The notes under the pieces: model-generated | Databases searched by the model: none | What the model saw: only the letters and a program-made list of their open reading frames with translations | Told to the model about the DNA's origin: nothing | Program-made: the position numbers and the translations under genes | Part shown: piece after piece, positions 1 to 33,348 of the stretch | How the letters are laid out: each line of letters opens with the position of its first letter | How positions within the stretch are numbered: position 1 is the stretch's first letter | NCBI GenBank assembly: GCA_021772955.1 | Contig: JAJFKZ010000028.1 | Location: 1 to 33,348 of the forward strand | Origin: Gammaproteobacteria bacterium | GTDB lineage: Bacteria; Pseudomonadota; Gammaproteobacteria; Xanthomonadales; Wenzhouxiangellaceae | Reading direction: 5' to 3' | DNA length: 33,348 nt

Positions 1-244
1 GGTCACCGTGAATGTGTGAAAATGCCACGCCTGCCTGCTCAAAAACGTGGCCGTCCTGCAGCACTTGAGTGATGCCGCCACCACCGGCTGGTCGTTGCCA
101 TGCATCCCGGGCAAACCCGGCGGCACCGTCCAGTTCGCTGAAGCGGTCACAAATACCTTGCTGCAAGCCCTGCAGATACTGCTTGACTGCAGCGATGCCG
201 TGCTCATCAGATTTCAGGTCTGGTGAATGCTGGTTATTGTTCAT
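1..244 (-). CDS. hemF: Coproporphyrinogen III oxidase, aerobic (5' part only)
   Basis: This is the first 81 codons of a gene that runs off the left edge; it is absent from long-ORF lists because it is cut. Reading from an ATG at 244, the translation starts MNNNQHSPDLKS and contains RPAGGGGITQVLQDG followed by VFEQAGVAFSHIHGD. That Gly-rich segment and the VFE-AGV-FSH-G block are characteristic of aerobic HemF, the oxygen-dependent oxidase that decarboxylates coproporphyrinogen III to protoporphyrinogen IX in heme synthesis. A weak AGAGGA lies about 14 bp before the ATG. hemF beside tsaC and dprA is the arrangement known from pseudomonads, which supports the call. The catalytic C-terminal part is outside the window. 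Confidence 0.9.
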   Translation of the reverse strand, partial: MNNNQHSPDLKSDEHGIAAVKQYLQGLQQGICDRFSELDGAAGFARDAWQRPAGGGGITQVLQDGHVFEQAGVAFSHIHGD

Positions 245-420
245 GGTGGATAGCAATCCTCTGCATAACTATACCTGGGGCGACGGCGTCACTGCGTGAT
301 GCTCCGGTGCAGCCGCATTGAGTGTGGTTTGACCATGGCAAATGCACGCACCGAGACGTGGCGAAGCGCACGCAGCACGCATGCTACGGCTGTTCCGGGC
401 ATAACGCGTTCCATGACCAG
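245..420. other. Intergenic region upstream of hemF
   Basis: The whole hemF-tsaC gap runs from 245 to 542. In this part I see no supported gene. A TATAGT on the minus strand about 30 bp before the hemF start is a possible -10 box, but no good -35 accompanies it. Short reading frames here lack ribosome binding sites and recognisable content. The rest of the gap, from 421, is a repeat-element remnant described separately. Confidence 0.4.
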
Positions 421-521
421 CCCGCATATTTCATGAAGACGGACAGTTACTGGTACTATTTTACGGATAAACAAGGCGATAACAGAAATATTATGAATTG
501 TGGAGTGGACACAGATTGTCC
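421..521 (-). mobile_element. Solo end of a family-1 MITE-like element
   Basis: This roughly 100-bp stretch begins with the inverted-repeat core CCCGCATATTTCATGAAG and then matches, base for base over long runs, the right end of the intact element at 32981-33230 read in reverse. It includes an identical run of about 26 bases around 459-484 (core TTTTACGGATAAACAAGGCG). Similarity fades at about 521, near the tsaC stop codon, and no second inverted repeat is found, so this is a truncated or one-ended copy. It has no coding capacity. Confidence 0.75.
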
Positions 522-542
522 TTCAGCGCTGCCCTGGCACCA

Positions 543-19418: not shown

Positions 19419-19453
19419 ATTAACCCGGCAATCTGTTCGATTGCCGGGTTAAT
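19419..19453. repeat. Perfect 14-bp stem of the hairpin cluster
   Basis: ATTAACCCGGCAAT at 19419-19432 and ATTGCCGGGTTAAT at 19440-19453 are perfect inverted repeats around a 7-base loop. A GC-rich imperfect palindrome containing GCCCGGGC lies just before it (about 19396-19418). Confidence 0.8.
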
Positions 19454-19467
19454 AGCTCAATCATTGC

Positions 19468-19737
19468 CTAGTGGGCCATGCGGTTAATTAGGTAACACTC
19501 AGCCGCCGCACAAGCATCGGGGGCAAGGCGCGCGAGCGAAGGCGTCCTTGCCGGGCCGTCGAGCGAGCGGAACGCAGCCCACGGCGCTTGTGCGGCGGCC
19601 CTCCGGGAGCCACTGTGCCGGCGCGACTCGGCGTTGCGCTGCTTGGCAAGGGAGCGGCCATTCCCTGCAAAACGCGCCTTGATTCGCACCGGCACAGCGG
19701 CTCTGAGCGTTACTTAATTAACCGCATGGCCCACTAG
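19468..19737. mobile_element. 270-bp MITE-like element with long terminal inverted repeats
   Basis: Both ends carry CTAGTGGGCCATGCGGTTAA in inverted orientation. The first 23 bases match exactly and 33 of 35 match overall, continuing through GTAAC and CTCAG. Inside is a second inverted pair, CCGCCGCACAAGC against GCTTGTGCGGCGG. There is no coding content. It shares the terminal CTAGTGGGC with the element at 13236-13402. It fills the gap between the dtd hairpins and the DUF4124 gene. CTAG at both ends fits insertion at TA within CTAG, as for IS630-type transposases (inference). Confidence 0.85.
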
Positions 19738-27031: not shown

Positions 27032-27218
27032 CTAGCCCGCATAGTGCACGAGGACGTACGTTCAGGTAAGAAAAGCGTATGCACACCAATAAGTTACAAC
27101 GAAATTGATCAAAATTGCAAAAGTTCAGTTTGTCCTATTCGGTGTTAGGAAAAATCTGCCAAAGTAGTTTGGCAGAATTCCCCTAAAATCCGAATCCCTC
27201 ATGCAATATGCGGGTTAG
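27032..27218. mobile_element. Degenerate family-1 MITE-like element after prpC
   Basis: The left end CTAGCCCGCATAGTGCACGA and the reverse complement of the right end, CTAACCCGCATATTGCATGA, resemble the family-1 terminal repeat CCCGCATATTTCATGAAGG. The interior shares scattered blocks with the intact copy at 32981-33230, such as a TTTGTCCT-TTCG segment at about 27129 followed by AAATCTG. The copy is shorter (187 bp) and more diverged. It ends 1 bp before the prpC stop codon. Confidence 0.6.
27150..27176 (-). terminator. Rho-independent terminator of the mdh-prpB-prpC operon
   Basis: On the minus strand TCTGCCAAA, a 4-base loop and TTTGGCAGA make a perfect 9-bp stem followed by five T. It lies about 45 bp after the prpC stop and inside the degenerate MITE-like element. 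Confidence 0.8.
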
Positions 27219-27219
27219 C

Positions 27220-28341
27220 TCAACGCTCGCTGATGTCTACCACTTCACGTTTGTCCGGACCGGTGTAATCGGCACTGGGGCGGATGATGCGGTTGTTGCT
27301 GCGTTGTTCCATCACATGCGCAGCCCAGCCAGTCAATCTGGACATGACGAAAATGGGCGTGAACAGCTTGGTTGGAATGCCCATGTAGTGGTACGCCGAA
27401 GCGTGAAAGAAATCGGCGTTGGCGAACAGCTTTTTCTCATCCCACATGATGCGCTCTACGCGGTCGGAAACGTCAAACAGCAACTTGTTGCCGGTTTCCT
27501 TGGCCAGCTGCCTTGACCATTCCTTGATAATGGCGTTGCGCGGATCGCGCTCACGATAAACGGCGTGGCCAAAACCCATGATCTTGGCCTTGGCGGCAAG
27601 CTTTTGGTGCACATCAGCTTCAGCCTGGTCCACCGATGCATAGTGCTCCAGCATGGCCATGGCGGCCTCATTGGCGCCTCCATGCAAGGGGCCGCGCAGT
27701 GTGCCGATGGCAGCGGTAATGCAGGAATGCAGGTCAGACAGGGTCGAGGCACAGACCCGGGCGGCGAAGGTGGAGGCATTGAATTCATGCTCGGCGTACA
27801 AGATCAACGAAACGTCCATGACCTTGGCATGCAAATCACTGGGTTCGGAACCATGCAGCAAACGCAGAAATTGGGCGCCGATACTGACATCATCGCTGGC
27901 CGTGTCAATGCGCACCTGATCGTGACTGAATCGATACCAATACAGCAGCATGCCCGGTAGCGTCGCCAGCAAGCGATCGATATGGTCCAGCTGCTGTTCG
28001 AAGTCCGTTTCCGGCTCCAGATTGCCGAGGAATGAACAGGCTGTGCGTAGCACATCCATCGGATGCGAAGCGGCCGGAATCAGTTCCAGCACGCTTTTCA
28101 GTGCCGCGGGTAAATCGCGCAAGCCCTGCAGTCGCTTAACATAGGCCTGCAGCTGGGACTGTTGCGGCAACTCACCACGCAGCAGCAGCCACGCGACTTC
28201 ATTGAAACTGGTCTGGTCGGCCAGATCACGGACATCGTAACCGCGATAGCGCAAACTGTTACCGGCCGCGCCGACGGTGCAAATGGTGGTTTCGCCAGCC
28301 GACTGCCCACGCAGTCCGGCAGCGGAAATCTTCTGGTTCAT
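27220..28341 (-). CDS. prpC: 2-methylcitrate synthase
   Basis: A 373-residue citrate synthase-family enzyme that condenses propionyl-CoA with oxaloacetate. Motifs include the N-terminal [10 protein letters not shown], the catalytic histidine region [14 protein letters not shown] and [14 protein letters not shown] with the second catalytic His. Length and context identify PrpC rather than the longer citrate synthase GltA. The start overlaps the prpB stop by 4 bp (ATGA) and GAGGAG stands 5 bases upstream, implying tight translational coupling. Confidence 0.95.
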
Positions 28342-32755: not shown

Positions 32756-32980
32756 AAAATGTTGCGCCGGGAGTGTGGTGTCAGCTGTTGCTCAAAGGAT
32801 GGTCATGCTCTGTTAACAAACAATGTTAGTTTGACCGATTTAAGCGATCAGGGAAACCACCTTGAGCATTTTCTTCTTTTTGCTCGATGTGCTTGTCAGC
32901 ACCAGCGCTGGAGTTGACCTGCTGCTCAGTCACATTGATCACGGCGGCCTCGGCGCTGGGCTGGTGTGGCGTGCTGCCGT
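32756..32980. other. Region without a confident gene
   Basis: Upstream of the PLP-enzyme gene this stretch is open in one phase on both strands. A minus-strand frame ending at 32826 would encode a charged tail containing GADKHIEQKEENAQGG and can only begin at an ATG supplied by the repeat-element end at 32990 (54 aa). It could be the remnant of a gene cut by the element, or chance. A promoter for the PLP-enzyme gene should lie near 32760-32830 but no clear boxes were found. Confidence 0.3.
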
Positions 32981-33230
32981 TAGCCCGCATATTTCATGAA
33001 GGGTTCGAGGAGCAGGGCGAAGCTGGCTAAGCAGCTTGGACGATCGCCCGCAGAAGCATAGCCGTAGCTATGCTTCAAGGGCGATCGGCCGAGATGCAAC
33101 GCCAGATTTGGCCTGAACTCGAACAGGACAAACCGTATCCACTCCACTATGCAAATTTTCAATGTTATCGCCTTGTTTATCCGTAAAATATGACTAGTAA
33201 CTGTCCGCCTTCATGAAATATGCGGGTTAG
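32981..33230. mobile_element. Intact family-1 MITE-like element
   Basis: A 250-bp non-coding element with terminal inverted repeats: CCCGCATATTTCATGAAGG on the left, present in reverse complement on the right at about 33208-33226. TTAG flanks the core at both ends in direct orientation, which may be a 4-bp target-site duplication. Its right half is nearly identical to the remnant at 421-521 and a diverged copy lies at 27032-27218. A near-perfect internal palindrome (AAGCATAGC-CGTA-GCTATGCTT) at about 33054-33075 forms a further hairpin. No transposase is encoded. Confidence 0.85.
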
Positions 33231-33348
33231 CCATAGTGCTGACACTCGCGATGCAATCCAGCAGTCCTCGCCAAGCTGGCTGCGCACACCGCCATGACCG
33301 CCCCTGTAGCCGGCAAGGCTTGACTGCAATCTGCTTGCAAGCTCTGCT
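33231..33348. other. Right edge, no assigned gene
   Basis: The last 118 bp are open in all three minus-strand frames for most of their length and I cannot tell which, if any, is coding. No family motif is recognised. A gene entering from outside the window and ending near the repeat element is possible. Confidence 0.3.

Follow-up and report, generated by a model that had tools for sequence, protein, structure and literature searches.

Near the right end of the window, the whole stretch of 33,348 nucleotides analysed here, lies a short sequence with inverted terminal repeats, raising the questions of what kind of element it is and which transposase could have moved it. The earlier note had described an intact 250-bp MITE-like element with matching 19-bp terminal inverted repeats, TTAG at both borders, an internal hairpin and no reading frame, and we found each of these structural features again. 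The element proper, read directly from the sequence, is 243 bp long (32984-33226), and the 250-bp span assigned to it (32981-33230) also took in three of the four left and all four right flank bases. The features of this copy and of two further copies in the window are as follows.

32984-33226, plus strand: MITE of the 243-type subfamily, from the sequence; 97.1% identity to a consensus built from 24 aligned copies, best other own-genome copy 96% over 251 bp
32980-32983, no strand: left target-site duplication TTAG (YTAR), from the sequence and the family flank count
32984-33002, plus strand: left 19-bp terminal inverted repeat CCCGCATATTTCATGAAGG, read from the sequence
33003-33124, plus strand: internal hairpin, a long imperfect inverted repeat with approximate borders; its tip is the nesting place of a second repeat in composite copies
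33208-33226, minus strand: right 19-bp terminal inverted repeat CCTTCATGAAATATGCGGG, the exact complement of the left repeat, inside a 141-bp overlap with contig C33
33227-33230, no strand: right target-site duplication TTAG (YTAR), from the sequence and the family flank count
421-522, minus strand (reverse orientation): truncated 243-type copy with left flank CCAG, the remainder lost; aligns with C141:1-521
27036-27214, minus strand: complete 179-bp MITE of the sister (240/179) subfamily, flanked by CTAG (27032-27035) and TTAG (27215-27218)

No open reading frame of at least 100 aa overlapped the 243-bp element, and a scan revealed no promoter or terminator consensus around it. The element is thus short, bounded by exact 19-bp terminal inverted repeats and devoid of a transposase gene, as expected of a type II MITE. 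Folded with DNA parameters, its strand reached -73.8 kcal/mol, compared with -32.6 ± 3.7 kcal/mol in 200 shuffles (z -11.2). A fold of this strength would also suit a structured regulatory RNA or another functional repeat, conserved in place and immobile. However, long inverted repeats alone yield strong folding, and a gathering search against Rfam returned 0 matches in the window.

We then examined the family in the own genome, whose assembly comprises 2.63 Mb in 176 contigs and is 88.5% complete. The 16-bp end, allowing at most 2 mismatches, matched 107+98 = 205 times, while the reversed-pattern control matched 0+0 times, excluding a chance origin of the ends. From 98 loci among these matches, 55 end pairs less than 600 bp apart were collected, of which 34 were closer to the 243-bp type and 21 to the 240-bp type. 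The family thus contains one subfamily of about 243 bp and a sister subfamily of about 240/179 bp, whose representatives (240 and 243 bp) were 71% identical over 154 bp. The stretch around GAACAGGACAAAC (within 32984-33226, near alignment columns 140-160) was 99% conserved in the 24 aligned copies, exceeding the ends, and the sister subfamily carries a similar CGAATAGGACAAAC.

After six of the 55 pairs were left out (nested pairs or a missing flank), 49 elements entered the flank count. Identical 4-bp flanks were found in 30 of them and were lacking in 19; independence would give 13.7, and 0 of 10,000 shuffles reached 30. The pattern YTAR fitted 91 of the 98 element ends. A TA duplication of the IS630/Tc1 type was ruled out, since the outer two bases are duplicated too (CTAA/CTAA, TTAA/TTAA). 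These results showed many dispersed copies with target-site duplications, and the high-copy MITE family proposed in the earlier note was borne out. The same note had called the window copy the founder of the family, which goes too far: its identity to the consensus is the highest only in a tie with one other copy, and this value fits a young copy and a source copy equally well.

To describe the insertion sites, we rejoined the flanks of 47 sites at which both were long enough. Only 16 of the 47 rejoined sites were open across 198 bp, compared with 96 of 134 control YTAR sites (p 9e-6); therefore the elements favour gaps between genes. This preference, the conserved internal stretch and the placement of the 27036-27214 copy directly behind a gene end could all be read in favour of a regulatory RNA. 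Gene avoidance, however, follows from selection against gene disruption, and target duplications are present family-wide, including perfect YTAR duplications at 16 of 16 MITEs examined in G055, a genome of the same order.

The two other copies in the window were also examined. The truncated copy, which had been placed at 421-521, is real and extends to 522. In contrast, the supposed degenerate copy at 27032-27218 proved to be a complete member of the sister subfamily, and six further own-genome copies matched it over 185-191 bp at 92-95%. A gene of the citrate synthase family (27220-28341, minus strand) has its stop codon 5 bp from the edge of the 27036-27214 copy. At this site, the one of the window's three that was compared with relatives, homology to G001, a genome of the same genus, starts only at 27217, just outside the element; the other flank could not be aligned, and a strict empty site in G001 was not obtained. 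G001 thus lacks the element at the site compared, which also speaks against a repeat conserved in place, and we consider the regulatory-RNA explanation highly improbable. The earlier note had named two results that would count against a mobile family, namely no other copies in the genome, or the same sequence recurring at homologous sites within a conserved RNA or gene; neither was encountered, the second at this one site.

The contig ends bear on how the window copy is joined to its flank. Positions 33208-33348, containing the right repeat and the right flank, form an exact 141-bp suffix in common with contig C33, and positions 1-141 form an exact prefix in common with the start of contig C141. 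Window 1-522 and C141:1-521 were 93.3% identical, with 420 bp of flank included. Both contig ends look like branches of the assembly graph, and the breaks look as if the assembler had stopped at repeats with k = 141. The evidence for joining the window copy to its right flank is therefore the assembler's path together with the matching TTAG. In contig C33, the same right flank is preceded by another element, 211 bp long and with left flank ACAG, and the TTAG/TTAG match favours the joining in the window over that in C33.

Next, we considered which transposase could recognise the ends. G055 contains an intact 1679-bp insertion sequence flanked by TTAG/TTAG, with ends CCCGGATATTTCATGA and CCCGAATTTTTCATCA that agree with the MITE end at 15 and 13 of 16 bases. 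Its gene matched Pfam PF13701 over positions 3-431 of 435, and its transposase was 54-56% identical to those of ISPa33 and ISPosp7. These two names were taken from plasmid annotations, which also assign ISEcp1 to the IS1380 family. Compared by eye, this insertion sequence and the G055 MITEs have the ends alone in common.

Similar ends were observed in other members of the IS1380 family. ISPa33 (1561 bp, CTAA/CTAA) agreed with the MITE end at 13 and 13 of 16 bases, and ISPosp7 (1613 bp, CTAG/CTAG) at 11 and 14. Elements of Acidovorax temperans (1627 bp; 12 and 13 of 16), Stutzerimonas (1655 bp; 11 and 11) and Marinobacterium (1568 bp; 11 and 12) were all flanked by CTAG/CTAG. The Nostoc element, with flanks TGAA, falls outside the YTAR rule, and a clean end pair was not obtained at three of the ten IS1380 loci (Komagataeibacter IS1380A, Shinella and Azotobacter). 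A 4-bp YTAR duplication was present at 6 of the 10 loci examined, as in the MITEs, and the end motif common to the IS1380 elements and the MITE is CCCG(C/G)ATATTTCA. In an Opitutaceae genome, the exact 19-bp end and CTAA come after a C-terminal fragment of PF13701; a second contig terminates in the same last 115 bp, in that case with TTAG, the homology being judged by eye. The MITE therefore has terminal repeats like those of the G055 insertion sequence, ISPosp7, ISPa33 and the Acidovorax element, identical to the Opitutaceae end, and the same 4-bp YTAR duplication. Outside the ends, nothing was recognised in common between the MITE and any insertion sequence examined, and likeness to an autonomous element is thus limited to the terminal repeats, as in type II MITEs.

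The transposase gene itself was less regularly found. No intact IS1380 gene was detected in the own genome, where the sole PF13701 match, in an assembly 88% complete, was a sub-threshold C-terminal fragment; a matching transposase in the same genome as the MITEs was found in G055. Nothing else IS1380-like was found in the own genome besides this fragment (L218; G000:C9:7154-7525), next to which a TTAACCCAATTGTTGCATAAATCC stretch resembles an IS1380-type end of a different sort. PF13701 had no match in 5 of 13 other end-bearing genomes searched, nor in 3 of 5 end-bearing relatives, and G022 had four PF13701 hits without matching ends (best 11 of 16).

Such a gap in the own genome would be expected if the MITE were moved by a transposase from a different family that duplicates YTAR, such as the IS5 group. 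The IS5 group prefers YTAR targets, and a YTAR duplication alone does not separate transposase families. A PF01609 transposase was not found in the own genome, however, and it is IS1380 elements that bear the same terminal motif as the MITE, which makes a mover from another family improbable. Judged from the sequence, the 243-bp element is very probably a type II MITE that relies on an IS1380-family transposase like those of ISPa33 and ISPosp7, which recognises its ends in trans and inserts it at 4-bp YTAR sites. A transposase of this DDE family (PF13701) would bind the MITE ends and insert the element at a YTAR target, which would thereby be duplicated, and the window copy would have moved in this way. 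The source element may have been lost from the own genome or may be missing from the incomplete assembly, and the internal hairpin may be purely structural, with no need for a cellular function.

We also assessed the distribution of the ends in other genomes. Of 61 genomes, the own genome and 60 relatives, only the own genome contained the exact 19-mer. With the 16-bp end and at most 2 mismatches, 44 of the 61 genomes matched, many with only a few matches, against 0 to 2 per genome in the reversed control. Matches numbered 27+27 in the congener G001, 15+18 in G005, 19+15 in G022, 16+10 in G046 and 98+97 = 195 in G055. A restriction of the family to the own genome was therefore dropped. G004, of the same family, contains a 240-type relative with altered ends.

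Farther afield, 45 stretches from named genome contigs contained the exact 19-mer; they belong to Gammaproteobacteria, Desulfarculaceae, Desulfocarbo indianensis, Nitrospirota, Opitutaceae and others. End matches were found in 17 of 17 genomes searched from these carriers, reaching up to 72+72. Relatives of the 243-type interior, at least 60 bp long at 70-82% identity, were present in 4 of the 45 named loci (L062, L072, L089 and L095), and elsewhere the ends alone were found. Plasmid and phage collections contained no match to the 243-bp MITE itself, and no viral contig held the exact 19-mer end. An autonomous element was also sought among the ORFs near the ends in the named loci and rejected, the ORFs scanned being housekeeping genes. 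In one of these loci (L063, 2764-5880), two MITE-type ends lie 3117 bp apart around folate-metabolism genes (FTCD_C, THF_DHG_CYH), with CTAA on both sides as read from one strand; this may be chance or a MITE-bounded cargo unit.

A second repeat was identified in the window at 19468-19737. It is 270 bp long with 35-bp inverted arms and had no Rfam match. With shorter matches (below 72 bp) and two hits of the arms in the window against themselves set aside, it matched 23 own-genome places over at least 72 bp. At 19 of these, 243-type MITE sequence adjoins the second repeat at the hairpin tip; the four without an adjoining MITE are the window, C155, C61 and C43. This shared position is best explained if nesting took place once and the resulting composite of about 500 bp then multiplied. 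By eye, the arms of some copies of the second repeat differ in sequence from those of others, although the two arms of any one copy still pair. Just before the repeat, at about 19419-19453, lies a near-perfect palindrome, TTAACCCGGCAATC...GATTGCCGGGTTAA.

On a wider reading, the MITEs would form an IS1380-type superfamily found in several bacterial phyla, one that persists and bursts in genomes mostly without a matching transposase and that can acquire a further miniature repeat at the tip of its hairpin, the two then multiplying as a composite. The extension over phyla draws on the occurrence of the exact 19-bp ends among Gammaproteobacteria, Desulfarculaceae, Nitrospirota, Opitutaceae, Neomarinimicrobiota and others, and we put this reading forward as a tentative possibility, with some doubt.

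These findings connect a high-copy repeat that had no name with one particular transposase family and target rule, so that repeats of this kind can be annotated. G055, with one intact IS1380 element and its many end matches, offers a natural system for testing trans-mobilisation by IS1380 transposases, and the nested composite suggests that a MITE can act as a carrier for another miniature repeat. The interest of the family is moderate and lies in its breadth, the pairing in G055 and the composite.

Searches of the openly licensed PMC literature did not find the 19-mer end, found GCATATTTCATGA only in two papers with unrelated titles and, in the accessible text, yielded no description of an IS1380 MITE. 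The family is an ordinary kind of element, type II MITEs of IS1380 type, and as far as these searches reached it is new as a described member. The earlier note had not recognised it as a named element; this holds for the MITE itself, but its ends match those of the named elements ISPa33 and ISPosp7.

Compared with known systems, ISPa33 and ISPosp7 of the IS1380 family have 11-14 of 16 end bases and the 4-bp YTAR duplications in common with the MITE, but they are 1561-1613 bp long and carry a transposase gene, whereas the MITE has none and only the ends are alike. Duplications of 5 bp are listed for two other IS1380 members, IS1247 and ISPsp9, in the accessible passages of two papers. Type II MITEs in general resemble autonomous insertion sequences in their terminal repeats alone, according to the accessible text of PMC10969869, and the same is seen here; those of Anabaena sp. 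90 are given in the accessible part of PMC3542288 as 77-541 bp long with 147 copies. In the accessible text of these two papers no mover is assigned, whereas the ends here point to IS1380. The accessible text of PMC4133298 describes TIMEs, Tn3-derived miniature elements of about 262 bp, which have no gene, carry the ends of an autonomous family and are held to be moved in trans; they have 38-bp Tn3-type ends and 5-6-bp duplications and usually occur once per genome. Against this description, the 243-bp MITE is likewise short and geneless with the ends of an autonomous family, but differs in its 19-bp IS1380-type ends, 4-bp YTAR duplications and high copy number.
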